Virus record (IMG/VR): IMGVR_UViG_3300025483_000017
Span: 1 to 52,098 of that record
Strand: one strand, 5' to 3'
Origin: a virus
Length of the DNA stretch: 52,098 bases
Shown here piece after piece: positions 1,389 to 28,650 of this stretch. Position 1 is the first letter of the stretch. Each line of letters begins with the position of its first letter. The position numbers were made by a program, and so were the translations under genes. The notes beneath the pieces are model-generated. The model saw only the letters and a program-made list of their open reading frames with translations. It searched no databases and was not told where the DNA came from.

Positions 1389-1617
1389 TGAATTAGTTGA
1401 AGTACCTGTCGAAAAAATTGGAGAATCATTAAAGACTATCAATGAGTGTCTACAAGTACTGGGAAAGCGCCTGCAAGAGGTTGAAAAGTATGTTTCCGAG
1501 TTACCCACACCAGACAAGACTTATTACAAACCAGAGGCATATGAGGAGTATATGAATCTGAAAGAAAATTTTGATGAAATCTATAAAAGGTTAGGGAAAA
1601 TAGAAGATGGGATGTAA
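1381..1617 (+). CDS. Hypothetical 78-aa coiled-coil protein
   Basis: This gene overlaps the end of the AbrB-like gene by eight bases and the start of the 987-aa structural gene by eleven, which points to translational coupling. Residues 8-40 and 52-76 show heptad-like spacing of Leu/Ile/Val among charged residues (ESLKTINECLQVLGKRLQEV), consistent with two helices that could form a hairpin or coiled coil. There is no signal peptide. A role as a small assembly or chaperone-like partner of the downstream virion protein is plausible from the overlap but not shown. Confidence 0.65.
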   Translation: MNDELVEVPVEKIGESLKTINECLQVLGKRLQEVEKYVSELPTPDKTYYKPEAYEEYMNLKENFDEIYKRLGKIEDGM

Positions 1618-4570: not shown

Positions 4571-4573
4571 ACT

Positions 4574-7768: not shown

Positions 7769-10700
7769 ATGAATACAAATAAGGTCTCCCAGTCGATCGC
7801 TTCTCAGTCTCCTGAGTTTCTTAAGGCAGAATATCCGCTATTCAATAAATTTATTGAGTACTATTATAAGTCTCAAGAGAAGACAGGTCTAGGTCAAAAT
7901 ATTATTAACGACTTTTTGCAATATCTTGATATTGACAAACTGAATATTAATATTTTGGGTGGATCTACGAAGGTAGTAGAAGCAATTAGTGCAGATAGTA
8001 GTGAAATTATTGTTGAAAGTATTGATAGTTTCTTAGATGTTAATGGTTCTATTTTAATTGGTGATGAGGTAATTTATTATGAAAATACCTCAAGCGCACC
8101 GAATATTGCTTTAAGTCCTGGAATTTCTTACGATCAAGTAAAATTAAAGTGGACTGGACTTGCTCAAATTATTGATTTATTTGATGGAACTGAAGTTCGT
8201 TTCCCTCTAACTTCCCAAGGTTCTCCAATTTCATCACCTTCATCTCAACATCTTATTGTTAGTTTGTATGGTAGTGTTTTAATTCCCAATGTTGATTACA
8301 CAGTTAATGGAACTGATATTGTATTCACAGTAGCTCCAAGATCTAGAACTACTGGGGATGATAATATTGATACGTATATTACTTTTTTAAGTGGTTTTAT
8401 TGAAAATGAGATCGTTAGTATTGACGATATTTCTGGATCTTTTGGAGAAGGTGAAACTAAATTTAAACTTACTAGTAATGCTATTAAATATGAACCTATT
8501 GCCGATGAATATATTTTAGCAGTTTATGAGAATAGATTTCTTGTACCTAAAGTAGATTTCTTTATTGATGGTGATATATTCATTTTTAATGAAGCTCCAT
8601 TAAACGGAAGAGTTCTTTCGTTATATTCTATTGAGGCACCAATTCCAACATTTGGTAGTAATGCTGTAGGATATGCACGTATTAACGATACTGGTGAACT
8701 CACATCTATCAGTGTTAATAATAGCGGATCTGGATATGAATATAAGTATCCCCCAAGAGTTTCTGTAAAACACCCAGATGGTTCTGGTGCTTCAGTAAAT
8801 GCTCTTGTGAATGGTATTAAAGACGCAACTTTACTTGACGGTGGAAGAGGGTATAGTGATACAAATCCTCCTATTGTTGTTGTACAAGACCCAATAAATG
8901 TTGATGCTGAAGTACCTGAGTTAAAAGCTGTTGTTACCAATGGTTCTATTTCAAGTCTTGAAATTTTAAATTCTGGCAGTGGATATACATTTATCCCTAG
9001 AGTTTCATTCAAACAACCAGGTGGTGCAAAACTTGGATTACCTACGATTGCAAGTGGATCTGTTACAGGAACTATTTCAGTATTAAATGGTGGTAGTGGA
9101 TATACAACTGTACCAGAAGTTTATACCGATGAACCAACAGGAGATAATCCTGTAAAACTCTCTTTACAAGCAGTTCTGACAAATGGAGTTGTCAGTTCAG
9201 TTAATATCCTCAATAGTGGTCAGGGATACGAAACACCACCCAGAATTGCAATTATTGATCCTACTGGTGCTCAAGTTTTACAAACCCTTGTTGACGCTGA
9301 CGGTAGAGTCATTTCAGTTGAATTGTTGGATGGTGGTAGTGGATATGATGATGTACCATCTGTTTATATTGTTGATAGTGAAGAAGATGGTGGAACTGGT
9401 GCATCTGCAACTGCCAATGTTTTTAATGGAAAAATTACTGATATTAATATTACTAATTTTGGATCTGGATACTCTTCTTCCAATCCCCCAAGAGTTATCA
9501 TTCAAAATCCACCAGAGGCAAGATCTTCTGTACAAATTGGATTGAATGAAGTTACTGGTTTCTCTGTCTCTAAGAAAGGGTCTGGATATACTAAAGCAAA
9601 ATTTGAAGGTTGTGCAAGAGCAGTTAGTGGTATTGTTTCATATAATGAAACTGGGAATGCAGTATTTTCAAACAATACCATAGCAGCAGTTGCTAGTGAA
9701 AATACCGAAGTTAAATGTCTCGATGCTCTCTTCGTTAAGAGACTTTTGGACAAATATACCGAGCAGTTCCTTCCTGATGTTCCAGAACTTGATTATACTA
9801 AAATTGATGTAAGAAATGCAATTAAATCTGTAAAAGATTTTTATTCTACAAAAGGAACTTCATTTAGCGTTGCATATTTATTTAAATTGCTTTATGGTGA
9901 AGAAGTAACAGTTTCTTACCCAAAAGATCAAATTACCAAACCATCTGCCGCAACTTGGTCTATTGATACCGTTCTTAGAGCAACTCTTGTTAGTGGAAAT
10001 CCTACAGATATTAAGGATGGTCTTTTAACTCAAGAAGAGAATATTGCAGACCCTAATATTACAGCAGCAAGTGCTCTAATTGAAAATTATATCTCAATTA
10101 AAACTTCCGATGTTGAACTATTTGAACTTGTTCTATCTGAGGAAACTATTAATGGATCATTTGTAGTTCCTTATAAAACAAAACTTGCAGAACCTCTTGA
10201 TACAACCAATAGTATCATCACTGTAGACTCTACAATTGGTTGGCCAGAAAGAAATGGTGAATTTATCATTGGTGGTACGGAACTTATTCAATATAAGGAA
10301 AAATCCTTAAATCAGTTTATTGAGTGTACTCGTTCTGTAAATAACGTTGTTGAGGATTGGGATTCTGCAACCGAAGTTACTTCAAATCTTGAGGTTTATG
10401 TTAATAAAGGAACTCCGCAAGAAGTTATTTTAAATATTGTTGGTATTGTTGATGCTCAACAAACTGTTTTAACCGATACGGGATCTTATTACCTTGGAGG
10501 AGATAAACTTAGTGTATCTAAACTTGGTGGTAGTTCTCAAAAACCAGAATTGCAAACTTGGTTGTATAATGTCAAAAAACTTTTAACTGTTGATAGTATT
10601 ACTTTTGGTGGTGTTGATAATCAATTTGCAACAGTTACTTGTGCAAATTCTCATGGTCTCTTGGTTGGAGATCAAGTTACCATCTATGGTGCGAATCCTA

Positions 10701-13700
10701 TTGTTTATAATGGAACTTTCTTAGTAACATCTAGAGATAGTTCAACGGTATTTCAGTATCAACTCCCACAAACAGCAGAAATTGTACCTCAGGGAAACAT
10801 TCTTGTATCTGTTGATTTGAATAAAGGTAAGTCTGATAATAGTGCTGTTTTGAATTCTATTGGACCATACACAACCAATATTCAAAATTCTTTCTTCAAT
10901 ACTGACTATGTGTATGTTGCATCCACAGGTATTCCAAATTATAAAATTGGTCCATTTCCAGGATCGGCACTTTTACCTGGAAATCAACGTAAGTTAAATA
11001 GATTTCCATTAAATCCTTCAACTATTTCAATTAAGGATATTATTAATCCAGGTCCAATTGGAACTTGGATTAACGGTACATCTGTTTGGTCTTACAAATC
11101 TAGTATCAAAAAAACTTTTGGTCCTATTACTTCAATTGGTATTACTAATGCTGGTGCTGACTATGATGCAGCATCCCCACCAAATATCAGTATTTCTGGT
11201 GGTAGTGGAACAGGAGCAGCTGCTTCTGTAGTAGTTAATGGATCTATTACAGAAATTTCTGTAGATACTGGTGGTAGTGGATTCACTTCATCTCCATTGA
11301 TCTCAATTGTTGGTGGTGGCGGATCTGGTGCATCAGCAACTGCTATTGTCACTAAAGGAATTGTTTCTAGTATCCTAGTGAATAATGGTGGTACTGGATA
11401 TACATCTAAACCAAATATTACTGTTGTTGGTGGCGGTGGCACAGGTGCTACAGCAACTGCCTCGGTTCGTGGTCCTATTCAATCGATTTCAGTTACAAAC
11501 GGTGGTGATTCTTACATATCTAAACCCGATGTCATTTTAAGTTCTGGTACTGGTGCTGTTGCCCAACCAATTGTTAATAATGGTAGAATTATTTCTGTTG
11601 CTATCATTTCTGCTGGTTTTGGATATACAACCGCTCCCGAAGTAACTATTCAGGGAGATGGTTTTGGTGCAATCGCCCGCGCAACAATTGATGTTGATGG
11701 TGAAAATGCGGGTAGAGTAACTAATATTGAAATTATCAATCGTGGTATCAACTATACTCAAGGAACAACATTAATTAATCTTACATCTGCAGGTTCTGGA
11801 GCAACTTTTGAACCGCAAGTATTTGAATGGAATTATAATTTACAAGAAACTACAACTGTTGATTCTGCAAAAGGTTCGGTATTTTCTGGATTTAATAGTC
11901 AGTATGGTGGAGAATATGCTCATATATCAAATCCTCAAAGATTGAGATATATTCTTGGGGATAATTTATTTGAAAGTGTAACAGGTTTAATTTTAGAACG
12001 AGATAATCAACTAGATCATTCTCCTATTATTGGTTGGGCATTTGATGGAAATCCAATTTATGGTCCTTATGGTTATTCGGATCCTACGGATCAATCATCA
12101 AATATTACTCGCCTTAATACTTCATATAGACTTAAAAATAATTTAGTTTATAATCAAGTCTCAAATCCAACTCCAGTGAGACAGTCTGGTCCATTGCTTT
12201 CTGATGAAGCGGCTGGTAAATTTGTTGAAGATTATGAATATTCTTTTGGATTAGGTGATCTTGATCAATATAATGGTCGTTTCTGTAAAACTCCAGACTT
12301 TCCTGAAGGTAGCTATTGCTATTTTACTACAATTGATACTACTGAAAACGGAAATCCAGTATTCCCTTATGTTCTTGGTCCTAGTTTTAATTCTATTGTA
12401 GATTCTTGGAATATCAATAAAGATGCAATTCAACAGAACATTCCTACAGGTGTTGTAAGATATCGTGATCCTTATGAGAATGTTGACATTGATGTTGAAC
12501 GTGCACCAAATGCCTCTACAAATGCACTAACTCTTGAAAATGGTGATATTCTATTATTTGACATTGAAGATGAAAATAGAGATGGTATTATCAGTCAAGA
12601 TGAAACTGATGATCCAGATCAAATATTTGAAGAATCTCCATTGCAATTATTTGATTATTTCCCATCGGTAAGATTTGATTCCAAAGTTGATATTGAAGTT
12701 GAGACAACTACTAAATTTGAAGATGCTTCTGTTAGTGGATTTATTATTGAAGATGCTGGAACAAGTTATCAGGTTAATGATATTCTAACTTTTGATAATG
12801 CAAACACTGATGGAATCGGTGTATCTGCAAGAGTTTCTAAAATTACAGGTGAAACTATCAGTGCATACGGTTTTGAAACTTCAGGTGACGATTTTACTGG
12901 TAAAATTACTACAAGCACACCTCATAATATTGTTTCTGGAGATACGGTGTATGTCTCTTATAATCCGATTATGGACGAGACAAACAAACAGTTTTTTGTT
13001 AGGCAATTTAAAGGTATTGAAGAAATTGTCATTAATCAATCTGGTTCTGGATATGATTCTGAAATTCCAACAACAGTTATTATTGATGGAGATGGAGAAT
13101 CTGCAGAACTTAGTGCTGTCGTAAATCCTACAGGATCAATTACCAATGTTAATATTGTAAATTCTGGAGTCGGATACACTACTGACCCTAGAGTTATTTT
13201 AAGTCATCCACAAATCTTTAAAAAAGCAAGTTATTACGTATCTTTGATTACTAGTCAAAATTATGTAAAAGTTAATGATGTTATTGTTAATGATGAAAAG
13301 GATGTTTTCTTTTGTGGTAAAACTCTTGATACTAATGGAAATGAAGTTGCATTCCTATCTAAATTTTCAGAACTTGGTGTTAAGGAGTGGGAAGAAACTC
13401 TAGAGAGTCAAGATGGTGAAACATATACTGAATTTGTTAAACTTGATGTGAGTGGAGATGATATTTGGGTAGTTGGTCAAAATAAACCAAATTCAGCAAT
13501 CCTTACTGCTTATAATCCTGATATTATCTTAGCAAAATATACTCAATCGATTGATGGATTGAGTGCAACCTTGAATTTTCAGAAAGGATATTCTGGTATC
13601 TCAGGTTCTACTAGATCTGACAATATTACAACTATTAAAAAATATTCAGATTCTCGTTATATTATTGGAGGATTTACTAATACCAATTCTGCCAATCCAC

Positions 13701-16700: not shown

Positions 16701-19700
16701 TAATTAATGAACCAGAAGGTTCTGCAAATACTTCTAGAGCATCTTATACTACAAGTTCTGTTAAAGCAGTTGGTTCAATTGGTGATATTAGATTAATTAA
16801 CTCGGGTGGATTCTATTCTAAGTTACCAGTTGTAACTGGGATTCTTTCCTCTAGAAAAATTGAAAGAGTTCAGATTAATGAACCAGGAACTGAATATTCT
16901 GTTGGTACATATAACAGTGTTCCTATCAGCGGCGATGGTGAGGGTGGTTTGGTTACTGTTGTAGTTGCTAATGGAACTAATGATGACGGAGATGTCATTC
17001 CTGGTCAAATTCAACAAGTTGTAATTACATCTCCTGGAAAGGGATACACTACAGCAACTATTGATGTTGAGTCGATTAGCGGAATTTTAGGAGCAGGATT
17101 GACTGGATCTGGTGCTGATATTGAGGTTGTGATTCCTCCATTTGGAACTGGTGCAGTAGTATTTGCTAAAGGTACTAATGTTGGTAAAATTAAAAAATTA
17201 AAAAATAATAATTTTGGTTATGATTATCCACATGATTATACATTACGTCCAGAAATTACATTCCCAATTAATGCTCAATTAACCTCTACTAGTATTTTGG
17301 ATAGTATAACTGTTACTGATCCTGGTTCTGGATATTCTCAGGCACCTGCAGTCGTTATTACTGGTGGTGGTGGTTCTGGTGCAATTGCTGAGGCAGAAAT
17401 TAGAAACGGAAGAATCAATCAAATCGCTATAAAAGATCCTGGGGCTGGTTATTCTTCTGCACCAACAGTTTCTTTGAGATCTTCCTTTAACTATGTTGTA
17501 AACCTTGATCTTGGTCTGCTCCAGTTTGCATTCCCCCATGGAATCACAAATGGTTCTGAAATTACTCTCAATGTAGTTGATACTGGAGAAGGAGTAGAAT
17601 TCCCTCTTGCCTCTGGTGCTGTTGGTAGATTGAACGCTTCTACAACATATTACGCTATTTCTGGTACAGCAAACTCTCTTGAGAATGATCAATTAAAACT
17701 TGCTATCACACCAGCAAATGCAGAATTGGGTGATTCTATTGCATTTGCTAATGCTGGAACTGGAAGGCAGCAAGCATTAACAGAATCTTTTGGAGCATCT
17801 GCTACGGCAAACGTAATTACCTCCACTTTCTTGGAAGGAGAACTTGTATATCAAGGTGATACTCTAGAGAATGCGACTGCTACTGGATATGTTTCTACAA
17901 ATGAAGGTTGGCAAGTTGGACCAAGAGTTCTTAAAATTGTTGACTATACAGGATCTTTCGCTCAAAATCAAAGTGTTACTGGTAGTATTTCAAAGTCTTC
18001 TGGTGTAATTAGTGATTTGAAGATTGCTAAAGGTGTTTTGGAAGTTGGACCGATTACCAAGACATCAGGTCAATTTATTGACGATGTTGGAAAACCATCT
18101 GAAATTATTCAAAAAATTCAAGACTCTTACTATTACCAAGATTTCTCCTACGCTGTTAAGTCTTCTGTATCTATTGGTGATTGGAAAGATATTCTTATTA
18201 AAAATGTACACCCAGCATCATTTAAAGTGTTTGGTGAACTTAATTTAGAAGAATATGGTCGCACTGCCAATAAAGAGATTGATTTTCAACTTACCAAGTC
18301 GGTCGAACTTGCTAGAGATGCAACAGTCCCCAATATTCAAAGTTTTGCTCTTGCAGAACCTATCTATAGTGAGTTTAATAATACAGAGGTCCTTTTCCGC
18401 CAAAAACGTCTTACTTCATCAGAAAATATTCTGACCTCTGTTGTACAAAGACTTGATGATATTTCAAATCTTTTTGATGGTGAAAGGACTCAATTCCCTA
18501 TCACTGTTAATAGTGCTAATGTGATTGCAAATGCAGATCAAATGTTGGTTGTTCTTAATGGTGTTGCACAAACTCCAAATACCTCTTTTGAAGTGCAGGG
18601 AGATTCAATTATATTTGCTGAACCACCCCAACCTCCCGCAAGTGTTAAGTATGTTAATGTTGGTATTCAACTAGTTGCAACTAAAACTCTTAGGTTCCCT
18701 CCTAATAGTGGTATTTTCCCGAATATTGGAAATGTATTAACTGGAATTGCTTCTACAGCAAGACTAACTGTAACTTCTGTTGCTGGTAATACTATTACTG
18801 GTTTTGTTACGCAAGGAACATTTATTCTTAACGAGCAATGCTTTGTTAGTGCTACTGGATTCTCTGGAGCACTATTAGAGGTTACAGATGTTACTAACAA
18901 TGGTTTGTTTGAATTTAATGAGAACATTACAAATCTTACTGGTAACACTGCACTTGTTGAAAGTATCAACTTAGAAACGGGTCAAGAGACTCCTATTGCA
19001 GAACTTCGTTATAGTATTGGTGCTGCATCAACAAATATTGAAGTTGTCTCTCCTAATTCATCAACAGATACTCCTGTAACTGAAGGCACGTTTACTATTG
19101 GTGAAAACTATCAAATTGCTTCTGAAATTTTCAGAGTCGATTCTATTTCAAATGGAACTGAGTCAACTATACTTGTAGTAACCAGAGGGCAACTTGGAAC
19201 TACAACAATTTCGCATCAAGAAGATACTCCATTATATTCTACTGAAATTGAAGTAACTAATGCGTTAACTCTCAGTAAAACAACAGGTACATATCAGTCT
19301 ACACCTGGTCTTTTTAATATTCAAACTGATGATACTATTATTGGTGCTAGATCTGGTGTTGTTGCTAGAATTACACAAACAAGTGCATATCAAGATCCAG
19401 TAACATTAGAGTTTATTGAGCAAGTCAATATTTCTTCTGGTTCATCTTTCTTTGGTCTTCTCTTTAACAGATTGACTTCAGTCACATATCCAAATGTTAT
19501 TATTGATGATATTTCACAATCTCAAGTAAGCATTGTTGATTTTGACGATAATCTTACTGCGTTTGATTCTAAATTCCCTGCCAATGAGTCAATTAGTAAT
19601 AATATTTTAACTTATGACAACCCAAGTGGTGATCTTGTTGACAATGAGTTTATTCGTAATTATAAAATCCGTTATGGTAGCAATAGTGGTGAGTTTATTG

Positions 19701-22700
19701 TAGGTGAGAACTTTAAGATTAAGAAACTTACACTTACCAATGAGACTGGTAATGGATTCTTTACTCAGGGTCAAATTATCAGAACCAGAGATACTAAGGC
19801 AGAAATTATTGGATATAGTCAAGCAAGAAATACAATTTATCTTGGTAAGATCGGTAGATCTCAATCTACGGGTCAGGATTATCATACTGCCACATTTGTT
19901 GCTGGTGCTCAACTAAACACATATCATAAAAAGTTTGGTTCTAGTTCCTTAGCACTTTCTAAAGGCGCTTCTACCCATCTCTTTGCCAGTGGGGTTACTA
20001 ATGCAATTGTTGCTGGTGGTGGTGCTACAGGATCATTTACTGCTGCTACAGGCACTACATATGACCCATTTAGTGGTGATATGGTAATTGAAATTGGTAC
20101 TCATACTTTGACGACCAGTAACACAGTTACCATTGCTGATAGTGGCGTTAGTTTTACATGTGATTCTGATAACAATACCAATACTTATGATTATCCCAGA
20201 GCAAGTGATCCTGCATCTGGATCTACACTTAACATTACTGCAGTAACTTCTACCACAATTACTGTAGATGTTGGTGTAGTTCCTGTTGACGAATATCTAA
20301 CTATCCCAACTTCTACCGAGTTTGGATTTGCTTCAGGAGACTTTACTGTTGAAACTTGGATTAAACTGAACAGTGTTGCTGCTGGTAGTAAGACTATTTT
20401 TGATATGAGATCTGCTGCAACTGAACTTGCTCCTTATCTGTATGTCGATGGTGCAAATATTAAGTATTACAATAATGGTTCTGTAACTATTACGGGCGCA
20501 ACAACTCTTGTAGTTGATACCTGGTATCATGTTGCTATTTCTAGAAGTGGTACTGACACTAAGTTGTTCTTAAATGGCACTCAAGAGGGTAGCACATATA
20601 CAGATTCTAGCAACTACGGTTCAACAAAACCAATTAGAATTGGTGCTGACTATGCAGGTTCTGCTGTTACTCCTGGATATTTTGACGACTTTAGAGTTTC
20701 TACTAATGCTCGCTACACAGCAGACTTCACCGCTCCCACAGGCATGTTCCAAGGTGATGCAAATACCAAACTCCTCTTCCACTTTGATGGTGCAAATAAT
20801 CAAACATATACTCAAGATTGGTCTGGTGGAGAATCCTTTACTGATGGTGAAGAATTCAATAATGATGCTATTGCAGAGACTTGGAAAGTAGGTTCTTCTA
20901 ATCTTCCTTCTGGATTTGCAAATAGAACTCACAGATACTACGATGCCGCAACATCTGTGCAGCAAAACATTGAACTTCTTTCTGAAGAAGGCAACTATGC
21001 TGCAATTCAAGCATCTCCATTCCAGTTTGATGCATTACAGTCTCCAACAACATTAACACCAGCAACAATTTCTGCTTCTTCTTACTTTGGTAGTGCTGTT
21101 GCAGTTTCTAATGATGGATCTACCGATAGAATGGTAGTTGGTTCTGAAAGATATAATAGTTACAGAGGTAGAGCATATGTCTATGATCTGAACGGCGGAA
21201 ATGAAGTTGTCCTTAATGCTTCTGATGCTGCTGTTGATGATTACTTTGGTGCTTCTGTTGCTGTCAATGGAAATAAGATTGTAGTTGGTGCTCCTTACAA
21301 TGATGATGGTGGTGATGGTTCAGGTTGCATCTATACTTACAACCTTGATGGCACAGGCGAAAATAAAATTGTTGCTTCCGATGATGCGGGATCAGATAAC
21401 TTCGGTATTTCTGTTGCAATGACAGACACTTACATCTTTGTTGGTGCTTCTGGAGTATCTACTGGTCAAGGTGCTGTTTATCGTTTCGATCTAGACGGCA
21501 CTAATCAAGTTAAGATTCAAGCTAGTGATGGTGCTACTGGAGATGACTTTGGATATAGTATCGGGGTTGGTAGCAGTCGTCTTATAGTCGGTGCTAGGTA
21601 TGAAGATACCGAAGGAAGTCAATCTGGTGCAGCATACGTTTATAACTTAGACGGAACTAATGAAGTTAAGATTACTGAAACTGATGTGGATGCTGGTGAT
21701 AACTTTGGTGCAGCAGTTGCAGTTGGTGAAAATAAAGTTGTTATTGGTTGTTCTTTATATGATGGTGATGCAAGCAATGTATCTAACCAAGGTGCAGTTT
21801 TTGTCTATGACTTAGATGGAACTAATAAAATTAAAATTCAAGCATCCGATCTTGGACAATTAGATCAGTTTGGTCAGTCAGTTGCTGTTGGTGAAGGAAA
21901 GATTTTTGTATCTTCTCCTTATTGGGATGCTGGTGGTATTCAAAATACTGGTCAAATTTATGCATATAACCTTGATGGTACTAATGAACAGAAATTGGTT
22001 ATGCCATCTGCTATTGCTTTTGACAATATTGGTTATGATGCATTAGCGGTTGGTTCTGATAGGATTATAGTTGGTGCTCAGTTTGCTGATCCTAATGGTC
22101 AAAGTTCTGCTGGTGCTGCATATTTCTGGAAATATACACAAGAACTTACATCTGTCGACTTTACTGGCACATACAGAACAATTCTCCAAGAATTGGTTCA
22201 AGATATGCGTAATGGTAGTAATAGTCATGTCTGGGATGTGTCTGCTGCTCTCGTAGATAGAACTGGATCTAGTGTTAGTGGTATTGTTGGATATACAACA
22301 GTTGATGATAATCAATTATTGACTGGTTTCCAAACAATTCAAGGTCATATGAGTTCTATCGTAAACTATGTGCCTATTACTATTGCGGGTAGTCATGGAT
22401 TGACTCAATTCACTGATGCAACAGTCACGGATTCTTCTTATGGTACACTCGCTGAATTGACTGCCGCAGCAGGAACAACTTATAATGCATCGACTGGTGA
22501 TATGGTTATTACCTCTAACTCTCATGGACTGACGACTAGTAGTCTGATTAGAATCAAACCTGAGTCCTTAAGATTTACTTGCACTAGTGATAATAACGAA
22601 TGTGTTCTTGCTCACCCCCGTAAGAGTGATACTACTGCATATAACAGGGTTCTCAAGGTTACTGCGGCGGATACAAATACATTCACTGTTAATGTCGGGG

Positions 22701-25700
22701 CATCTCCTGTTGGTCAACAATATACACACACTTTTGCTAGTGCTGATACAAATGGTATTGTTGTTCTTGGATATACCACATCAGATTGTGCGGACGTTGT
22801 ATCCACAGTCAACAACCTTTTAGATATCACTGAAGACACTATTAGTGAAGCAATTGGCACGACTTCTAACGCTGCTAATGGTGACCACCTTGCTACAATT
22901 ACTAAGGTTACTCCTGCAGTTGAATTTGTTGGTGCCGCAGTAGATGCGTTCTTTGAGAATGAATTTGCTGGAACATATCATGATGGAACCGACGATTTTG
23001 TCTATACAAATCAGATTGGAACCGATGCCCGATATCGATTCCGTGATGCAGCAAACTTAATTCGTGCTAATAGTTCTGTAATTGTAGACAAAGCATCTGC
23101 TGATATGCTTTCAAGATATCCAGATCTTGCTAATGAAATGCCAAGAAATGTTAGTGGCAGTGATGCTGGCACTGAGCGTTGTAAGACTGATTTAGCAATC
23201 ATTGTTGGACAACTTGCTAAGGATATTGAATTTGGTGGTAATAGCAATACAGTTACTGCTTCTAAATTCTACCTTAATAGTGTTAATGAAATTCAACATA
23301 TCAGACTTCAGGTATGGCAATCTGCTTATGCCCATGAAAGATTGGGTTACTATATTAAGCAAGCGATCAATGGTGATCTTGATTATACTAATACTGATAA
23401 TATTATTACTAGTGATTGGGGGATTACTAATGATGCAGGACAATGTGCGAATGTTGCATCTGCTGTTGATACTTTAATTACTACTATCAATGATCTTATA
23501 GCTCCAACAGGAAATGATTTCAATATTGCTGCAGATAGATTATATTTCAATAGAAAGTATATTGCAGAAGAAATTGTAGGTCGTAATAATGCTGGTCAAA
23601 ATGGATTACTTGGTGCAGAACTAAGATATACCATTAATAGTGGTACTTTTACTGCAATCACTTATGATCGTCCCGAATTTACCACTTACATTAAAGACTT
23701 TATCGTTGCAATGATTTCCGATCTTCAAACAGGTGGTGATAATAGTACTATCGCCCAAATCCAGAAGTTCTTATCTTCCGATCTTAAGATTTCAGATGAT
23801 ATTGATACTAAGTTGTTTGCATTCTTCTATACTCATGAGCAGATTAAGATGCTTTCTGAGAAAGCAATTCAGAATCTTTTGTATACTGCAGGATCTTCCG
23901 TAAGTGGTGATCAATATGCTGCAGTACATACAAATGACTCTGCATACAGAGATGCTGAATCTCCAACTGACATTACTGCAGTATCTTGCAGAATGAGAAA
24001 ACTGGTTGATATTGGTCTAGACACCATTATGCCTGGTGATGTTGAAGCGCGTGGTGCAGTTAAGAATATTCTTTATAATGAGAACTACTATAAAGCAGAA
24101 ATTGCGTCTACGGTAAACTCTCAGTTTGGATCTGGTTCTTGGATATATGATTCCTTTGTTACGGATATTATCAATAATATTCAATATGATATATTCACTA
24201 CAGATACAGGTAATACTAGAACTGCATATACAGTAACTCTTGAAACTTATAGTGGAACTTTTGTTGCTGGCAACACTATCACAGATGGTACAAATACTGC
24301 AGAAATTTTGTATGTTTCTGAACCCGTTCTGATCATTGGTGCTGTAACTGGAACAGTTTATTCCGCAGGTGCTTCTCTTTCATCTAACGGTGCTACTGGT
24401 ACTATTGTTAGTGGAGGAATTACTACAGCACACGAATGGTATGAAAATATCAGTAATATTAAGACCATTGAAAGTGCCACTACAATTTCTTCTTTGATTG
24501 AAGGTTCTGTAGTCAATACCAATCTTTGGACTCTGCCTGAGCAGTTTGACCAAAACTGGACTACAACTTTAAGCACAGTCACTGCAAATGCAGGTACATC
24601 TCCAGACTCAACAAACACTTCAGATAAAGTTGCTGTAACTGAAACCACGGGTGAGCATTATATTGAGAGAACTTATGCTTTATCATCCTTTGATACTCTT
24701 GATAGCACATCTACTAAATTTGATAACGATACAGAAACATTTGACACTGGTGCTACTAATGCTACACAGACGTTTACATCATCTATGTTTGTTAAGGCAT
24801 CGGAATATAATAATGTTCAATTCTCAGTTATCTTAGATGGAGGAACTGTCAATGCTAAATTCAAGGTTGATCTGAATACTGGTACATTAGGATCATTGTT
24901 TGTTCAACCAGGCATAACAGTTTCTGATCATGGAGCAATCCCATTTGGTGATGGTTGGTTTAGAGTGTATATTACTGCTGAATTTGGTTTTGGTTTCACT
25001 ACTCTCAAAAACAAACTTAATGTTCTTCAGAATACCACACAAGTTGATAATTATGCTGTTCCTTCTGGTGGTGCTGGTGGTGTATTTGCCTGGGGTGCTA
25101 AACTTACAAATCAAGCATTAGCAACATATGTTGCTGTCAGTGGTCAAGAATTTTATGCTAATGCAGAATTCAATATTAAGAAATTTGCTCTCGATCTCAT
25201 GCAAGATCAATTTGGTCTTGCATTGAGCAATCTGTTACCAAGTCCTTCCACAAATGCATCATTCTATAAATTTTATGATGCTGCTGCTGCCTCAAATTAT
25301 AATACAGATACAATTAATGCATTTATTAGAGTTAGTATTGATGTCATCAGAGAGCAGTTAAAATCTAGTCTCTATTATACTACTATTACTGAAAATAATG
25401 GATTGACAATCCCCGTCAAAACATATGGCGATCGTGATATTCCTGTTGGTATTAGTGGTCAAATTATTGGATCTGACTACTTCTATTCTAGTGATAGAGA
25501 TTTGTATGCAGAAATTCAAACTGTAACTGAGAATGAAGCAGAAATCGCTAAAGTTTATAAGAGATTTAGGATTGATGGTGATATCACAGATGGTCCTTAT
25601 ACCATGAATGAAACTGTTCAGAAACAGGGAGATGCTTCTGTTACTGGTGTAGTTTACGGATTCTCTTCGGACGCGAACTTTAAGTATCTTGATGTTGCTG

Positions 25701-27406
25701 TAACTGGTGGAACCTGGGCAATTTTGGATACTATTGAAGGTGCTACAAATACAACAACTGCACAAATTAGTGCTATTGAAGATCGCTTACATCTTATCAA
25801 TATCAGAGGGTCTTTCGGTCCCAATATTCCTTTCAAGGGATATACAAGTGGTGAAACTGCGGATCCAGTTTTATTCACTCTCAACCAAGCAGCAGTAACA
25901 AATAATACTGGTGGTAAGTTGACAGTTGATACTGAAACTCTTTTAGGTTCTTTAGAAGTCAACTCTGTTCTATATCCAGAGTCTTCTAGAGAATATTTGG
26001 AAGTCTCTAAGTATAGTGGTCTTGATATTGAGGTGGGCGATCAGATTGCATCTATTGGTTACACTCGTTTAACTGTTAGTGTTGCTGCAAGTCTCAATAT
26101 ATTCACTGTTGGTAATAGATTATATCAAGTCTCTGGTGGTGCTCAGAACACAGCAGTTTATGGTGTAATCACTGAAGTTGATCTTAATAATAACTATATT
26201 TACTATGTCCCAGTTCAAGGAACATTTAGTAGTAGTCAATCAATCGGTGATTATGGTTTGAGTGGAGTTGTACAACAGGGATCTGCAACTATCAGTAATG
26301 TCACTGTTGTTGATGGTGGTGCTTCTGGCAGAGTTCAAGATGTTCGTGAATCTGGTTTAAATAAGAGATTGTATCTTACTGATATCTCAGGAACATTTAG
26401 TGGGAGAGATGGTATTAGAGGTTCTGATAATTATCGTGCTGCAGTTATTTCTAGGGAAATTCTTAAGGGACGAGTAAAACGTTTCTTCAAAGGATTTGAT
26501 GGAGTTCAAACCACATTTGATCTTACGATTGGTAATGGTACGCAGTATCTCCCAGATCCTGCAGGACACATGCTCATCTTCATTAATGGTGTTCTTCAAC
26601 CTCCTGGTAGTGGTAACTCTTATAACGCATTCTCAGATAAAATTCAATTTACCGAACCACCCGATTTAGGATCTTCTTTCACAGGATTCTATATTGGTAA
26701 ATTAAGACAACTTGATGATATTTCTTTTGAATTTGACTCTTTACGCCAATCCTTCAACCTTAAGCGTGATGATATTTTCTACTCCCTTACGCTTACGGAC
26801 GGTGTTCAGTCTAGTGTTATTAGACCCGAAAATAATATTATTGTTTCTGTTAATGGTGTTCTTCAAGAACCTGGTGTTGGTTTTGAGATTGTTGGTTCTA
26901 GAATCATTTTCTCTGAAATTCCTCGTTTTGGATCTACATTTGTAGCATTCTCTTATGTTGGTTCTGAAGCAGACGTTGATGCTGATGTTGTTGTACCGCC
27001 AGTTGAAGTGGGAGACTTTATTGATATTGAAGGTGAGATAAGTGATCGTGAAGTTGCTGTTATTGAATCTTCCAACTCCTTAATCACATTCGATTATCTC
27101 GGATCTGTATTTGGTCAAAATGCTGATGCTGCTGCAATTTTAACTAATGGATATATTGAGAAAGTTAACGTCACCGCTGGTGGATCTGGATATACATCTA
27201 GACCTGTTGTAAGACTTGATTCAATTTCTGGATTTGATGGTCAAGTTAAAGCTCTTGTGGGTGTTGCTGGCGTCACTGTTTTAAATAGTGGATCTGGTTA
27301 TTCAAATCCATCTGTAGATATTGAAACTTCCGTTCCTGATGATTGGACTGCTCCAGACCTTTCCTTATATGGTGCTGAAGTAATTGACCCTGAAGTAATC
27401 TCATAA
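7769..27406 (+). CDS. Giant mosaic tail/baseplate protein (6545 aa)
   Basis: One uninterrupted 19.6-kb frame, directly after gp6 (the T4 gp7 position). Layout by residue: 1-57 helical N-terminus (LFNKFIEYYYKSQEKTG); 133-291 two FDG/strand modules; 311-614 eight GSGY units; 655-735 conserved KDFYSTKGTSFSVAYLFKLL segment; 1122-1350 six more GSGY units; ~1395-1515 YHYH-like domain; 1821-2208 beta-propeller-like; 2224-2418 LamG-like; 3085-3238 GSGY; 3438-3493 conserved SYYYQDFSYAVK...HPASFKVFGEL; 3564-3634 FDG module; 4054-4334 second LamG-like, interrupted; 4434-4791 seven FG-GAP blades; 5071-5488 helical; 5585-5791 carbohydrate-binding-like; 6244-6398 two FDG modules. The three conserved segments resemble consecutive parts of a much shorter marine T4-like tail protein. 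Likely host-contacting fibre or baseplate protein; no signal peptide, membrane segment or catalytic motif seen. Confidence 0.88.
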   Translation: MNTNKVSQSIASQSPEFLKAEYPLFNKFIEYYYKSQEKTGLGQNIINDFLQYLDIDKLNINILGGSTKVVEAISADSSEIIVESIDSFLDVNGSILIGDEVIYYENTSSAPNIALSPGISYDQVKLKWTGLAQIIDLFDGTEVRFPLTSQGSPISSPSSQHLIVSLYGSVLIPNVDYTVNGTDIVFTVAPRSRTTGDDNIDTYITFLSGFIENEIVSIDDISGSFGEGETKFKLTSNAIKYEPIADEYILAVYENRFLVPKVDFFIDGDIFIFNEAPLNGRVLSLYSIEAPIPTFGSNAVGYARINDTGELTSISVNNSGSGYEYKYPPRVSVKHPDGSGASVNALVNGIKDATLLDGGRGYSDTNPPIVVVQDPINVDAEVPELKAVVTNGSISSLEILNSGSGYTFIPRVSFKQPGGAKLGLPTIASGSVTGTISVLNGGSGYTTVPEVYTDEPTGDNPVKLSLQAVLTNGVVSSVNILNSGQGYETPPRIAIIDPTGAQVLQTLVDADGRVISVELLDGGSGYDDVPSVYIVDSEEDGGTGASATANVFNGKITDINITNFGSGYSSSNPPRVIIQNPPEARSSVQIGLNEVTGFSVSKKGSGYTKAKFEGCARAVSGIVSYNETGNAVFSNNTIAAVASENTEVKCLDALFVKRLLDKYTEQFLPDVPELDYTKIDVRNAIKSVKDFYSTKGTSFSVAYLFKLLYGEEVTVSYPKDQITKPSAATWSIDTVLRATLVSGNPTDIKDGLLTQEENIADPNITAASALIENYISIKTSDVELFELVLSEETINGSFVVPYKTKLAEPLDTTNSIITVDSTIGWPERNGEFIIGGTELIQYKEKSLNQFIECTRSVNNVVEDWDSATEVTSNLEVYVNKGTPQEVILNIVGIVDAQQTVLTDTGSYYLGGDKLSVSKLGGSSQKPELQTWLYNVKKLLTVDSITFGGVDNQFATVTCANSHGLLVGDQVTIYGANPIVYNGTFLVTSRDSSTVFQYQLPQTAEIVPQGNILVSVDLNKGKSDNSAVLNSIGPYTTNIQNSFFNTDYVYVASTGIPNYKIGPFPGSALLPGNQRKLNRFPLNPSTISIKDIINPGPIGTWINGTSVWSYKSSIKKTFGPITSIGITNAGADYDAASPPNISISGGSGTGAAASVVVNGSITEISVDTGGSGFTSSPLISIVGGGGSGASATAIVTKGIVSSILVNNGGTGYTSKPNITVVGGGGTGATATASVRGPIQSISVTNGGDSYISKPDVILSSGTGAVAQPIVNNGRIISVAIISAGFGYTTAPEVTIQGDGFGAIARATIDVDGENAGRVTNIEIINRGINYTQGTTLINLTSAGSGATFEPQVFEWNYNLQETTTVDSAKGSVFSGFNSQYGGEYAHISNPQRLRYILGDNLFESVTGLILERDNQLDHSPIIGWAFDGNPIYGPYGYSDPTDQSSNITRLNTSYRLKNNLVYNQVSNPTPVRQSGPLLSDEAAGKFVEDYEYSFGLGDLDQYNGRFCKTPDFPEGSYCYFTTIDTTENGNPVFPYVLGPSFNSIVDSWNINKDAIQQNIPTGVVRYRDPYENVDIDVERAPNASTNALTLENGDILLFDIEDENRDGIISQDETDDPDQIFEESPLQLFDYFPSVRFDSKVDIEVETTTKFEDASVSGFIIEDAGTSYQVNDILTFDNANTDGIGVSARVSKITGETISAYGFETSGDDFTGKITTSTPHNIVSGDTVYVSYNPIMDETNKQFFVRQFKGIEEIVINQSGSGYDSEIPTTVIIDGDGESAELSAVVNPTGSITNVNIVNSGVGYTTDPRVILSHPQIFKKASYYVSLITSQNYVKVNDVIVNDEKDVFFCGKTLDTNGNEVAFLSKFSELGVKEWEETLESQDGETYTEFVKLDVSGDDIWVVGQNKPNSAILTAYNPDIILAKYTQSIDGLSATLNFQKGYSGISGSTRSDNITTIKKYSDSRYIIGGFTNTNSANPQDAFIASVDPAGSFAAKRKIASASGSEKITDLIILDDAVYFTMETATTDGNADSKVAFGKVLIGTSVITVEWIKEINNTAYSFRDTSLAVDEFDEFYITATLALKSDNNTKDSFWIGKLDTSGDLLWNYRYTVPSGNSIELASRSTIDIFGDLNLAYTRTDSTTGYKTIDTAKIGYDGKLKKHTNTEFNKNNIEGITVNAITSDNSGDTYAFGQTSWNRNEVVCEFASDATDKTDHYTLETLSATDSVKYEGGYAKIFGFDPTGSNSAWVNGAIKVPGNVLEEKLGDDWTIEFMLHKDATNSQTLSQTQQTLVAIGDATDATGGLWMYYDISSGRLELVVTNNSTTINSAGGALQSTETTLYADDSWQFIGLKKSGNTFTGYVNGTQIINGVIANTDLEDKNLYIGNIPGKNGTTGEFRSNEQGQFYMDNLVIKNRAITPDVPSDVTTIPPVASYALGFTWADTAWFTSHTNRYDYIDYVGFGIKVDKESDSERLGDQGVQTNTNIGFVRTEIALVTGVSLTNTNLGYSLGGTGLQALDFEDATTIMISNPSDVTLVYSSDIWSARTATVPSPGSRKLSISAKVKNRFYMKTTSTSKIDNVQELTLNQKFNITIGSKLVLNNDSGSFINSGYVLRVDNTTNKVYLAVNNNAWSNDLNTGLLSTTRFDEQSTYGITGPVVADVNEISEYYFSNIVNTTPGTFDIDLNDWNLNRTANTGSGDLDTFAKFKPFAEDVYSVRIDEISGSSSFITGSVVSITASDISFNAAKTTAQITNLTGVTKITLVANLDKVLQVTSLANTDEVYVITGSRHYLSLGDNIYVDGNPSQTVNSTVYDEYDGSFTVNTVVSNREFTYKLDAVALTAPATIPANVNIFAKSPVLKMYYGHQYRFDLSHSSMVGANLSFSKDNLYKLEYSFNSIERIGTPGVTGEGQTAPTIKLKVDKDVVTNISYYFDPSRTGDDSPINPNSYLDIVDSPYVGTFTVSEVDGATITSGATIFKFPLINEPEGSANTSRASYTTSSVKAVGSIGDIRLINSGGFYSKLPVVTGILSSRKIERVQINEPGTEYSVGTYNSVPISGDGEGGLVTVVVANGTNDDGDVIPGQIQQVVITSPGKGYTTATIDVESISGILGAGLTGSGADIEVVIPPFGTGAVVFAKGTNVGKIKKLKNNNFGYDYPHDYTLRPEITFPINAQLTSTSILDSITVTDPGSGYSQAPAVVITGGGGSGAIAEAEIRNGRINQIAIKDPGAGYSSAPTVSLRSSFNYVVNLDLGLLQFAFPHGITNGSEITLNVVDTGEGVEFPLASGAVGRLNASTTYYAISGTANSLENDQLKLAITPANAELGDSIAFANAGTGRQQALTESFGASATANVITSTFLEGELVYQGDTLENATATGYVSTNEGWQVGPRVLKIVDYTGSFAQNQSVTGSISKSSGVISDLKIAKGVLEVGPITKTSGQFIDDVGKPSEIIQKIQDSYYYQDFSYAVKSSVSIGDWKDILIKNVHPASFKVFGELNLEEYGRTANKEIDFQLTKSVELARDATVPNIQSFALAEPIYSEFNNTEVLFRQKRLTSSENILTSVVQRLDDISNLFDGERTQFPITVNSANVIANADQMLVVLNGVAQTPNTSFEVQGDSIIFAEPPQPPASVKYVNVGIQLVATKTLRFPPNSGIFPNIGNVLTGIASTARLTVTSVAGNTITGFVTQGTFILNEQCFVSATGFSGALLEVTDVTNNGLFEFNENITNLTGNTALVESINLETGQETPIAELRYSIGAASTNIEVVSPNSSTDTPVTEGTFTIGENYQIASEIFRVDSISNGTESTILVVTRGQLGTTTISHQEDTPLYSTEIEVTNALTLSKTTGTYQSTPGLFNIQTDDTIIGARSGVVARITQTSAYQDPVTLEFIEQVNISSGSSFFGLLFNRLTSVTYPNVIIDDISQSQVSIVDFDDNLTAFDSKFPANESISNNILTYDNPSGDLVDNEFIRNYKIRYGSNSGEFIVGENFKIKKLTLTNETGNGFFTQGQIIRTRDTKAEIIGYSQARNTIYLGKIGRSQSTGQDYHTATFVAGAQLNTYHKKFGSSSLALSKGASTHLFASGVTNAIVAGGGATGSFTAATGTTYDPFSGDMVIEIGTHTLTTSNTVTIADSGVSFTCDSDNNTNTYDYPRASDPASGSTLNITAVTSTTITVDVGVVPVDEYLTIPTSTEFGFASGDFTVETWIKLNSVAAGSKTIFDMRSAATELAPYLYVDGANIKYYNNGSVTITGATTLVVDTWYHVAISRSGTDTKLFLNGTQEGSTYTDSSNYGSTKPIRIGADYAGSAVTPGYFDDFRVSTNARYTADFTAPTGMFQGDANTKLLFHFDGANNQTYTQDWSGGESFTDGEEFNNDAIAETWKVGSSNLPSGFANRTHRYYDAATSVQQNIELLSEEGNYAAIQASPFQFDALQSPTTLTPATISASSYFGSAVAVSNDGSTDRMVVGSERYNSYRGRAYVYDLNGGNEVVLNASDAAVDDYFGASVAVNGNKIVVGAPYNDDGGDGSGCIYTYNLDGTGENKIVASDDAGSDNFGISVAMTDTYIFVGASGVSTGQGAVYRFDLDGTNQVKIQASDGATGDDFGYSIGVGSSRLIVGARYEDTEGSQSGAAYVYNLDGTNEVKITETDVDAGDNFGAAVAVGENKVVIGCSLYDGDASNVSNQGAVFVYDLDGTNKIKIQASDLGQLDQFGQSVAVGEGKIFVSSPYWDAGGIQNTGQIYAYNLDGTNEQKLVMPSAIAFDNIGYDALAVGSDRIIVGAQFADPNGQSSAGAAYFWKYTQELTSVDFTGTYRTILQELVQDMRNGSNSHVWDVSAALVDRTGSSVSGIVGYTTVDDNQLLTGFQTIQGHMSSIVNYVPITIAGSHGLTQFTDATVTDSSYGTLAELTAAAGTTYNASTGDMVITSNSHGLTTSSLIRIKPESLRFTCTSDNNECVLAHPRKSDTTAYNRVLKVTAADTNTFTVNVGASPVGQQYTHTFASADTNGIVVLGYTTSDCADVVSTVNNLLDITEDTISEAIGTTSNAANGDHLATITKVTPAVEFVGAAVDAFFENEFAGTYHDGTDDFVYTNQIGTDARYRFRDAANLIRANSSVIVDKASADMLSRYPDLANEMPRNVSGSDAGTERCKTDLAIIVGQLAKDIEFGGNSNTVTASKFYLNSVNEIQHIRLQVWQSAYAHERLGYYIKQAINGDLDYTNTDNIITSDWGITNDAGQCANVASAVDTLITTINDLIAPTGNDFNIAADRLYFNRKYIAEEIVGRNNAGQNGLLGAELRYTINSGTFTAITYDRPEFTTYIKDFIVAMISDLQTGGDNSTIAQIQKFLSSDLKISDDIDTKLFAFFYTHEQIKMLSEKAIQNLLYTAGSSVSGDQYAAVHTNDSAYRDAESPTDITAVSCRMRKLVDIGLDTIMPGDVEARGAVKNILYNENYYKAEIASTVNSQFGSGSWIYDSFVTDIINNIQYDIFTTDTGNTRTAYTVTLETYSGTFVAGNTITDGTNTAEILYVSEPVLIIGAVTGTVYSAGASLSSNGATGTIVSGGITTAHEWYENISNIKTIESATTISSLIEGSVVNTNLWTLPEQFDQNWTTTLSTVTANAGTSPDSTNTSDKVAVTETTGEHYIERTYALSSFDTLDSTSTKFDNDTETFDTGATNATQTFTSSMFVKASEYNNVQFSVILDGGTVNAKFKVDLNTGTLGSLFVQPGITVSDHGAIPFGDGWFRVYITAEFGFGFTTLKNKLNVLQNTTQVDNYAVPSGGAGGVFAWGAKLTNQALATYVAVSGQEFYANAEFNIKKFALDLMQDQFGLALSNLLPSPSTNASFYKFYDAAAASNYNTDTINAFIRVSIDVIREQLKSSLYYTTITENNGLTIPVKTYGDRDIPVGISGQIIGSDYFYSSDRDLYAEIQTVTENEAEIAKVYKRFRIDGDITDGPYTMNETVQKQGDASVTGVVYGFSSDANFKYLDVAVTGGTWAILDTIEGATNTTTAQISAIEDRLHLINIRGSFGPNIPFKGYTSGETADPVLFTLNQAAVTNNTGGKLTVDTETLLGSLEVNSVLYPESSREYLEVSKYSGLDIEVGDQIASIGYTRLTVSVAASLNIFTVGNRLYQVSGGAQNTAVYGVITEVDLNNNYIYYVPVQGTFSSSQSIGDYGLSGVVQQGSATISNVTVVDGGASGRVQDVRESGLNKRLYLTDISGTFSGRDGIRGSDNYRAAVISREILKGRVKRFFKGFDGVQTTFDLTIGNGTQYLPDPAGHMLIFINGVLQPPGSGNSYNAFSDKIQFTEPPDLGSSFTGFYIGKLRQLDDISFEFDSLRQSFNLKRDDIFYSLTLTDGVQSSVIRPENNIIVSVNGVLQEPGVGFEIVGSRIIFSEIPRFGSTFVAFSYVGSEADVDADVVVPPVEVGDFIDIEGEISDREVAVIESSNSLITFDYLGSVFGQNADAAAILTNGYIEKVNVTAGGSGYTSRPVVRLDSISGFDGQVKALVGVAGVTVLNSGSGYSNPSVDIETSVPDDWTAPDLSLYGAEVIDPEVIS
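8700..9610 (+). repeat. GSGY beta-repeat array 1 in the giant protein (8 units)
   Basis: About eight units of 35-45 residues with the pattern 'I.V.N.GSGY...P.V.I..P.G.GA.A.A.V..G.I..' follow each other, for example SVNNSGSGYEYKYPPRVSV and VLNGGSGYTTVPEVY. Units are diverged in sequence, so the array is a protein-level repeat and not a recent DNA tandem duplication. It lies between the N-terminal helix and the KDFYSTKGT segment. Confidence 0.85.
11131..11815 (+). repeat. GSGY beta-repeat array 2 in the giant protein (6 units)
   Basis: Six units, including GGSGFTSSPLISIVGGGGSG, GGTGYTSKPNITVVGGGGTG and AGFGYTTAPEVTIQGDGFG. These are closer to each other than the units of array 1 and share the GGGGSGA.ATA turn, so this block expanded more recently. 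It directly precedes the YHYH-like domain. Confidence 0.85.
17020..17480 (+). repeat. GSGY beta-repeat array 3 in the giant protein
   Basis: Units PGKGYTTATIDVESI, PGSGYSQAPAVVITGGGGSG and PGAGYSSAPTVSLRS lie here, preceded by more diverged copies near 16795-16960 (SGGFYSKLPVV, PGTEYSVGTYNSVPI). Two further units lie near the C-terminus at 27175-27330. The gene holds about 24 recognisable units in all. Confidence 0.75.
21070..22140 (+). repeat. Seven FG-GAP blades (integrin-alpha-like propeller)
   Basis: Seven successive repeats of about 50 residues carry 'D.FG.SVAV....I.VGA.........GA.Y.Y.LDGTN..KI.ASD'. Examples are YFGASVAVNGNKIVVGAPYN, NFGAAVAVGENKVVIGCSLY and QFGQSVAVGEGKIFVSSPYW. Seven copies would close a seven-bladed beta-propeller as in integrin alpha subunits. 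Several Asp/Gly-rich loops could bind calcium. Confidence 0.85.
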
Positions 27407-27429: not shown

Positions 27430-28650
27430 ATGGCTAAACAATCCCTAAACATTGGTACTGTTGCCAATGACAATACAGGTGATACTCTAAGGAGTGGCGG
27501 TGATAAAATTAATGATAATTTTGATGAACTATACACCGCCATTGGTAATGGAGCCACTTTAGGTATTTCAGTATCAAATCCAGCAGTGGGTCAGGTTCTG
27601 ACATACAACGGGAGTAGTTTTTCTCCCTCAAATTTTAATGCACTTACCTCAGCACTAGATGTTTCTGGTAATTCTATTATTTCCTCATCTGATGGAGACG
27701 TTACCATTGTTCCAAATGGGACAGGTGATTTTAGAGTTACTGCTGGAAGTCAGACAACAATTTTTGATGGTGCTACAGGAAATGTTTCTGTAGGTTCGAC
27801 TATTTCATATAAAAATGAATATACTGCATTAGGTAATGCTCCTAGTGCCGCATCTACACCTGGTTACTTTTTTACCGTTGATGGTGACGATAACCCATAT
27901 GTAAATATGAATATCACTTCTGGTGGTATTGGTGATAGTAGAGTAAAACTTCTTACTGAGTATTCAGGGATTGATACTCTGTCTGATGTTGATATTACAA
28001 CAACCGCTCCTACTACCAATCAAGTATTGAAGTGGAATGGAACTAATTTTGTTCCTGCTGATGATGTAGCTGGTGCTGGACAATCAAATACTTTTGCAAC
28101 TATTTCTTCAGATTCTGGTAGTACTACCGCAAATACTGTATCGGATACATTAACAATTGCTGGTGGTACTAATATTACTACAGCAGTTGTTGGTGATACT
28201 ATAACTGTAAACTTTAATGGAACTCTTACTACAACACTATCAGCATTAACTGATACTGATGTTTCTGGAATTACTCAGGGAGATTCCTTATATTGGAATG
28301 GAACTAATTGGGTTGTTACTAGAAGTCCAATCACCTGGTGGGAACTTGGTGCTGATGGAGCAAGTCATTTTACAATTAATGGTCCAGGTTTTTCTGCTGC
28401 TACAAATGATCCGACACTCTATGTAATGCGAGGTATGACTTATGCATTTGACAATAGTTCAAATGGCGGGTCACATCCATTCAGAATCCAACAATCTCAG
28501 GGACTTTCTGGAACTGCTTATACTACAGGTCAAAGTGGTAGTGGAACAAATGTCTTGTATTGGACAGTTCCAATGGATGCTCCAAATACTCTATATTATC
28601 AATGCACCATTCATGCACTTATGAATGGCACTATTAACGTTATCGTCTGA
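27430..28650 (+). CDS. Tail fibre-like protein with C-terminal cupredoxin-like domain (406 aa)
   Basis: The N-terminus (SLNIGTVANDNTGDTLRSGG, then DKINDNFDELY) is a common attachment motif of phage fibres. The middle is Ser/Thr/Gly-rich with beta repeats (LSDVDITTTAPTTNQVLKWN; LTDTDVSGITQGDSLYWNGT) typical of fibre shafts. The last ~110 residues form a cupredoxin-like beta-sandwich: H349 in GGSHPFRIQ and C392, H395 and M398 in LYYQCTIHALMNG. This is a complete type-1 copper ligand set (His, then Cys-x2-His-x2-Met). Whether copper binds is unknown; the fold may simply be a stable receptor-binding head. A late promoter precedes it and the next gene follows after five bases. Confidence 0.8.
   Translation: MAKQSLNIGTVANDNTGDTLRSGGDKINDNFDELYTAIGNGATLGISVSNPAVGQVLTYNGSSFSPSNFNALTSALDVSGNSIISSSDGDVTIVPNGTGDFRVTAGSQTTIFDGATGNVSVGSTISYKNEYTALGNAPSAASTPGYFFTVDGDDNPYVNMNITSGGIGDSRVKLLTEYSGIDTLSDVDITTTAPTTNQVLKWNGTNFVPADDVAGAGQSNTFATISSDSGSTTANTVSDTLTIAGGTNITTAVVGDTITVNFNGTLTTTLSALTDTDVSGITQGDSLYWNGTNWVVTRSPITWWELGADGASHFTINGPGFSAATNDPTLYVMRGMTYAFDNSSNGGSHPFRIQQSQGLSGTAYTTGQSGSGTNVLYWTVPMDAPNTLYYQCTIHALMNGTINVIV

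Follow-up and report, generated by a model that had tools for sequence, protein, structure and literature searches.

Gp7 of phage T4 (PDB 5IV5, 5HX2) is a baseplate wedge protein of 1,032 aa, in which Pfam recognises a helical domain (643-689), a domain V (766-861) and a domain VI (920-1012). A much shorter counterpart, gp17 of XM1 (242 aa), is found in a solved wedge: together with two copies of gp16, the equivalent of gp6, its N-terminal helix-turn-helix contributes to the core bundle, while its unresolved loops are embedded in the density of the tail spike (PMC10457771). Furthermore, TssG of the type VI secretion system is considered to be the same kind of part as gp7 (PMC6300606); both XM1 gp17 and TssG are structural analogues, likened here to our protein by description and not by sequence. 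For cyano- and pelagimyophages it has been stated that T4 gp7 is missing and that VrlC substitutes for it (PMC7029224).

The stretch of DNA analysed here (the window) comprises 52,098 nucleotides of the IMG/VR record IMGVR_UViG_3300025483_000017 and belongs to a marine virus of cyanobacteria. It contains an open reading frame of 6,545 codons without internal stop, which is matched over its whole length by PHROG 701 (6,136 positions). The evidence gathered below makes it very probable that this giant ORF encodes a gp7-type wedge subunit of the T4-like kind, the core of which has been enlarged by domains added at three tolerated slots.

The giant gene and its neighbourhood

The genes around the giant ORF follow one another in the order gp25, gp6, giant ORF, gp9-type connector, phrog_708 protein, gp8 and VrlC-like ORF:

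5313..5732, + strand: gp25 baseplate wedge gene (phrog_261)
5732..7762, + strand: gp6 baseplate wedge gene, the expected partner of gp7 (phrog_219, E 2e-225)
7769..27406, + strand: giant gp7-type baseplate wedge gene (probable identity), 6,545 aa, ~701 kDa (phrog_701 over the whole length)
27430..28650, + strand: gp9-type tail-fibre connector (phrog_677)
28656-32813: phrog_708 protein
32853..34385, + strand: gp8 baseplate wedge gene (phrog_438)
34385-42241: VrlC-like ORF (phrog_358)

The position next to gp6 in a baseplate operon is shared with the gp7 homologues of other phages. The downstream 24.7 kb are closest to S-CAM22 (79% nucleotide identity, 93% covered) and ACG-2014a (83% identity, 83% covered), and the protein is one of several hundred orthologues, with 290 phage records covering at least 80% of its first 760 residues. 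At the nucleotide level no tandem repeats of note were found, so that the protein repeats described below must be old at the level of DNA; the absence of any step in base composition at the insert boundaries, together with the absence of tRNAs, gives no sign of a recent entry of mobile elements.

A core of three conserved blocks

The initial annotation had proposed that three distant segments of the giant protein are successive parts of one short tail protein. Block HMMs were trained on 28 compact proteins only (461-760 aa), 400 randomised copies of the giant protein and the other large ORFs of the window being used as controls. The three HMMs matched the giant protein in order:

7778..7879, + strand: core block A, residues 4-37, first helix of an N-terminal helix-turn-helix (block HMM 25.6 bits; helices in models)
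9740..9946, + strand: core block B, residues 658-726 (block HMM 42.5 bits; Pfam PF23786 Baseplate_wedge)
18056..18247, + strand: core block C, residues 3430-3493 (block HMM 54.8 bits)

Scores went no higher than ~4 bits among the randomised copies and ~2 bits among the other large ORFs of the window. Moreover, PF23786 scores 30.8 bits in the giant protein, with a curated cut-off of 27. The distances of ~600 and ~2700 residues originally estimated between the segments were measured as 598 (A-B) and 2,701 (B-C), followed by 3,052 residues after block C; only 3 residues precede block A. The borders of the segments stood where they had been placed, except that the LQYLDID motif belongs to block B: in the window it stays joined to block A, and the break lies just after it.

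The A-B-C blocks are collinear in all 82 complete homologues tested. The short collinear homologue that had been predicted does exist, namely in pf16 (523 aa), RHph_I1_18 (528 aa), contig L019 (461 aa), Melnitz (896 aa) and HTVC008M (1,016 aa), and in the most compact case the core A+B+C amounts to ~280 aa. The series of proteins found at the same locus also includes Cr30 (767 aa), phiM12 (1,007 aa), T4 itself, S-CREM2 (1,937 aa), MA10 (1,942 aa), a group of 3,884-4,454 aa (S-CAM9, S-SM2, ACG-2014f and P-HM2) and the giants of 6,064-8,573 aa, while a scan of IMG/VR returned many further short complete homologues, down to 461 aa.

The compact proteins (pf16, RHph_I1_18 and those of contigs L019 and L080) share with the window protein the core blocks and the proposed wedge role, as well as the genome position in the case of pf16 and RHph, but have no A-B insert, and their B-C gap may be as short as 83 aa. 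In T4 gp7 the A-B-C core, placed at residues ~643-900, corresponds to that of the window; domain V occupies the B-C slot and domain VI the C-terminal slot, so that the same slots are used, modestly. T4 gp7, however, has nothing added in its A-B slot but ~640 residues ahead of block A, whereas the additions of the window protein in the A-B, B-C and C-terminal slots are very large. The giant cyanophage orthologues of PHROG 701 (P-SSM7, 7,124 aa; P-SSM4 gp7, 7,312 aa; S-CAM22; S-SM1; P-RSM6) have the same locus, blocks and slots, P-SSM7 being 78% identical to the window over the first 760 residues; they differ in the set of cassettes at residues ~4065-4802, and among them the window protein is mid-sized, not the largest.

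Nested insertion between blocks A and B

The sizes of the A-B slot do not form a continuum. In every phage examined that does not belong to Kyanoviridae the slot measures ~1 aa, reaching up to 14 in a few; HTVC008M, Melnitz and six cyanophages have 94-106 aa there, and the ten giants tabulated have 598-612 aa. The following parts were distinguished in the window:

7937..8089, + strand: older ~100-aa insert, first half, residues ~57-107, after LQYLDID (insert HMM)
8081..9586, + strand: younger ~500-aa insert within the older one, residues ~105-606, small beta domains and GxGY repeats (blastp breakpoints; AF2)
8675..9511, + strand: tandem GxGY repeats, residues 303-581, 7 copies of ~40 aa, with a degenerate eighth near 604 (iterated repeat HMM)
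9587..9739, + strand: older ~100-aa insert, second half, residues 607-657 (insert HMM)

An HMM of the older insert, built from the 126-position insert region of six other cyanophages, matches the window in two pieces: positions 1-70 at residues 37-107 (32.9 bits) and positions 70-125 at residues 607-662 (24.9 bits). The same split was found in eight further giants, the second piece being weak in P-RSM6, and blastp places the break at 110/111 of S-CAM9 and 112/113 of ACG-2014f, both equivalent to 104/605 of the window. Since these pieces are the two halves of the older insert, some 500 residues must have entered an insert that was already there. The direction of growth, compact forms first, follows from the compact outgroups; in a gp6 tree the giants form one clade (100/100) beside other cyanophages, the branch joining these others having a support of 82/84 and the deep outgroup branches being weak. 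The pelagi- and methylophage homologues, HTVC008M gp055 and Melnitz gp161, resemble the window protein in gene order, in an A-B gap of ~100 aa and in GxGY repeats between B and C, but their ~100-aa insert lies before the DID motif and that of the cyanophages after it, and the two were therefore probably separate events.

When residues 1-760 were modelled with AF2, the insert (~65-618) came out all beta, mostly with pLDDT 80-92, and core blocks A and B, modelled without partners, stayed under 50, as expected if the insert is an autonomous domain flanked by two helical pieces which would need their partners. Foldseek found no relative of the modelled insert in the PDB, while among predicted viral proteins it returned mainly phage structural proteins, with cyanophage relatives leading. 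One of the matches to this repeat-rich model is a Sylvanvirus protein, from a large virus that infects eukaryotes (BFVD A0A3G5AH46, E 3.5e-9, 23% identity).

The nested architecture appears to be undescribed: the openly searchable literature gave no account of the split core, of the slots or of the nested insertion.

The B-C insert and the GxGY repeats

The largest of the two inner inserts combines repeats with recognisable domains:

9947..18055, + strand: B-C insert, residues 727-3429
10175..10351, + strand: unsplit further copy of most of the ~100-aa insert module, residues 803-861 (27.9 bits)
11111..11656, + strand: GxGY repeats, residues 1115-1296, 5 copies (repeat HMM)
11744..12340, + strand: YHYH domain, residues 1326-1524 (Pfam PF14240, 69.3 bits)
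17276..17491, + strand: GxGY repeats immediately before block C, residues 3170-3241 (repeat HMM)

The YHYH domain is also present in S-CREM2 gp7, and no match to it was obtained in HTVC008M. As regards the GxGY repeats, 109 of the 112 copies found in 65 compact proteins lie in the B-C gap, which indicates that the repeat is native to gp7 and was seemingly copied into the A-B slot, where the insert consists largely of such tandem repeats (7-8 copies, ~40 aa). We infer an intragenic origin for the latter, the 35-residue units not being individually traceable. No Pfam model and no solved relative of the repeat were found.

Elsewhere in the window, GxGY repeats occur in the phrog_719 protein (1607-4570), the phrog_708 protein, gp8, the phrog_697 protein (42792-48800) and a gp14-like head-closure protein (49615-50787). 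The repeat is thus common to head, neck and baseplate proteins of one phage.

The C-terminal extension and the location of variation

The part after block C is built as follows:

18248..27403, + strand: C-terminal extension, residues 3494-6545 (3,052 aa)
19961..20290, + strand: 110-aa cassette, residues 4065-4174, with clean presence or absence among giants
20288..20713, + strand: LamG-like (Laminin_G_3) domain, residues 4174-4315, between the two cassettes (PF13385, 74 bits; weak PDB match 4qvs)
21047..22174, + strand: FG-GAP beta-propeller cassette of 376 aa, residues 4427-4802 (PF14312, 154.6 bits, 5 repeats)
26495..27211, + strand: conserved C-terminal module, residues 6243-6481

When the window protein is aligned with nine giant relatives, hardly any gaps appear in residues 1-4050, the sporadic insertions being found mainly in the two more distant relatives; the A-B and B-C inserts are mostly 50-90% identical across close giants. 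The best conserved parts are residues 3151-3600, around block C, and residues 6301-6450 (86-94% in close giants), the latter within the C-terminal module, which has counterparts in P-HM2, S-SM2 and S-CAM9. Turnover of cassettes is confined to the C-terminal extension. The 110-aa cassette is cleanly absent, with 0-5 residues left, from ACG-2014a, S-RIM8, P-SSM4 and ACG-2014d, and is 61% identical to P-HM2, other matched stretches reaching 30-39%. The FG-GAP cassette is cleanly absent from S-CAM22 and S-SSM5, with ~10 residues left; in P-SSM7 and P-SSM4 this stretch is instead occupied by many copies of the 110-aa module.

This distribution bears on two other explanations of the giant protein. 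It could be mainly a short gp7 fused to a separate downstream gene for a tail fibre or receptor-binding protein, the insertions between blocks being secondary: the extension is nearly absent in S-CREM2 (16 aa after block C) and MA10 (49 aa) and carries its own conserved end module. Such a fusion would, however, leave the 598 and 2,701 residues between the blocks and the split of the older insert unexplained, and in none of the phages inspected does the extension exist as a separate gene; as an account of the whole protein we regard it as improbable, though a fusion may be the origin of the C-terminal extension alone.

Alternatively, all the inserts could be host-recognition domains, as the LamG, FG-GAP and YHYH domains would suggest. 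A scaffold with receptor-facing inserts was already the initial interpretation of this protein, of which the short protein split by insertions holds good and the receptor-facing nature of the inserts does not hold throughout: those at A-B and B-C are near-gapless and conserved in close giants, variable, lectin-like cassettes are limited to the part after block C, and proteins of the window that are not receptor proteins, among them gp8 and the gp14-like head-closure protein, have GxGY repeats too. This second alternative is slightly less probable still than the fusion. Conservation and native repeats together give both inner inserts the appearance of fixed structural enlargements of a gp7 core, and the basis of host-range differences among close relatives should be sought at residues ~4065-4802.

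Other forms of growth were seen among the homologues. A protein of 2,056 aa (L060:5986-12153) has no A-B insert, an ordinary B-C gap of 320 aa and 1,542 residues after block C, and is, judging by its sequence, a case of separate C-terminal growth. The longest protein seen, P-RSM6 gp7 (L014:908-26629; 8,573 aa, 25.7 kb), has more than 1,000 extra residues near window residues 5400-5550 and ~5,000 residues after block C. Finally, the BFVD entries I3UL95 and I3UL96, as well as phrog_19630 and phrog_18802, separately cover the first ~1,260 residues and the part of the protein after ~3,290, and some phages or gene calls may split the gene.

Probable identity as gp7 and integrity of the gene

That the protein holds the position of gp7, as first proposed, is supported by sequence profile, Foldseek and gene order. 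A direct phmmer search of the PDB with the first 1,500 residues only hinted at T4 gp7 (E 0.24), and a profile of homologues was used instead: built from six proteins of 523-1,016 aa (alignment A1), it matched a Klebsiella-phage gp7 (E 1.3e-6) and T4 gp7 (E 1.1e-5). On the PDB gp7 the match comprises the A-B region (~648-760) and, in the right order, a weak match to block C (862-902) with the motif YxxKIKSxLPxSRxxxDVxRFVHPVGFGF; the block C HMM taken alone is weak on T4 gp7 (4.6 bits). For the 461-aa homologue an AF2 model from 28 sequences is of moderate quality (pTM 0.46), and the only three PDB matches that Foldseek gave for it below E 1e-3 are all gp7 entries, the low TM-scores showing that the match is local (3Di/sequence signal). 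Neither of the two window stretches tested had a match in NCBIfam, and the match of RHph to TIGR02242 stayed below the cut-off.

The reading opposed to gp7 identity is that of PMC7029224, according to which gp7 would be absent from cyano- and pelagimyophages, with VrlC in its place, and the giant ORF would be another structural protein. It is true that T4 gp7 as a query finds the window protein weakly and that the Pfam domains Gp7_helical, Gp7_5th and Gp7_6th, found in T4 gp7, are absent from it, and in its accessory domains the window protein, going by these searches, is not a T4-type gp7. Nevertheless, it is the giant ORF that carries blocks A-B-C in order, adjoins gp6 and has Baseplate_wedge above the cut-off, besides the profile and Foldseek results; the block HMMs found none of the three blocks in the VrlC-like ORF of the window, and no similarity to phrog_358 or VrlC was found in the giant ORF. 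The absence of gp7 is thus very unlikely here. As for an assembly chimera or misjoined ORF, conceivable in a single IMG/VR contig fragment, it is refuted and its probability is negligible, since the stretch compared is identical in another IMG/VR contig (L105) and continuous orthologues of 6,064-8,573 aa occur in eleven other phage records, mostly isolates.

Annotation in the databases

The gp7 identity of the giant ORF contradicts the absence claimed in PMC7029224. The class of giant ORFs is not new: it has been in the databases since P-SSM4, some members being labelled gp7. As for the name itself, the records of P-SSM4 and S-RIM8 give it to the giant ORF and that of S-CAM22 to the adjacent gene, and other records do not use it. 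In S-CAM22 a neighbouring phrog_708-type gene (L098:22429-26556) is named 'baseplate wedge initiator gp7', and the giant that precedes it is labelled 'baseplate wedge protein' only; the block HMMs did not find blocks A-B-C in the window ORF that corresponds to this neighbour. The identification of the giant ORF settles the contradiction between the claim of absence and the database records that name a gp7.

PHROG 701 is filed under 'head and packaging', and the family of HTVC008M gp055 (L003:5436-8486), phrog_3465, is annotated 'head closure Hc2'. Such Hc2 and head labels on gp7 homologues probably arise from the GxGY repeats shared with the true Hc2 protein, phrog_460. Moreover, in the records examined one orthologue is spread over T4-GC 397, 507, 643, 969 and 1204; the enlarged architecture explains why homology clustering broke it into several clusters, and so T4-GC969 could appear as a Synechococcus-enriched gene.

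Virion presence and proposed role

Proteins of this series have been detected in virions. The S-SM1 orthologue (SSM1_102, 6,180 aa) belongs to T4-GC969, for which purified virions of S-SM1 yielded multiple peptides (PMC3037559), and ORF122 of S-CREM2 (1,937 aa) was found with 91 unique peptides and 27.2% coverage (PMC10665884).

The wedge role of the core is deduced from homology, and the other functional steps from conservation and domain types. The A+B+C core most likely builds the helix-turn-helix bundle and the trifurcation with two copies of gp6 in each of the six wedges. Three slots have received large domains that fold independently, namely the A-B slot at the turn of the helix-turn-helix, the B-C linker and the C-terminus, growth taking place partly by amplification of the protein's own GxGY repeats and partly by uptake of outside modules; in the A-B slot, the newer ~500-aa insert lies within the older ~100-aa insert. 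The conserved A-B and B-C inserts, to judge from their conservation and domain types, may make the outer baseplate larger and keep conserved neighbours in place, while the variable C-terminal part (LamG, FG-GAP propeller, 110-aa modules) would point outward, contact the host surface and might bind receptors, and the conserved last ~240 residues would anchor the extension to a conserved virion partner.

The ordered series of ~1, ~100 and ~600 residues in one slot illustrates how a core part of a machine can be enlarged without breaking the core. If six copies are present, each baseplate would contain ~4 MDa of gp7. In a broader and distinctly tentative interpretation, gp7 would be a protein of fixed insertion slots, with inserts nesting in inserts, and the ~0.7 MDa subunit of cyanomyophages might have taken over the separate outer-baseplate and host-contact roles of T4; if this were true, one polypeptide would be both the first part of wedge assembly and the sensor of the host.
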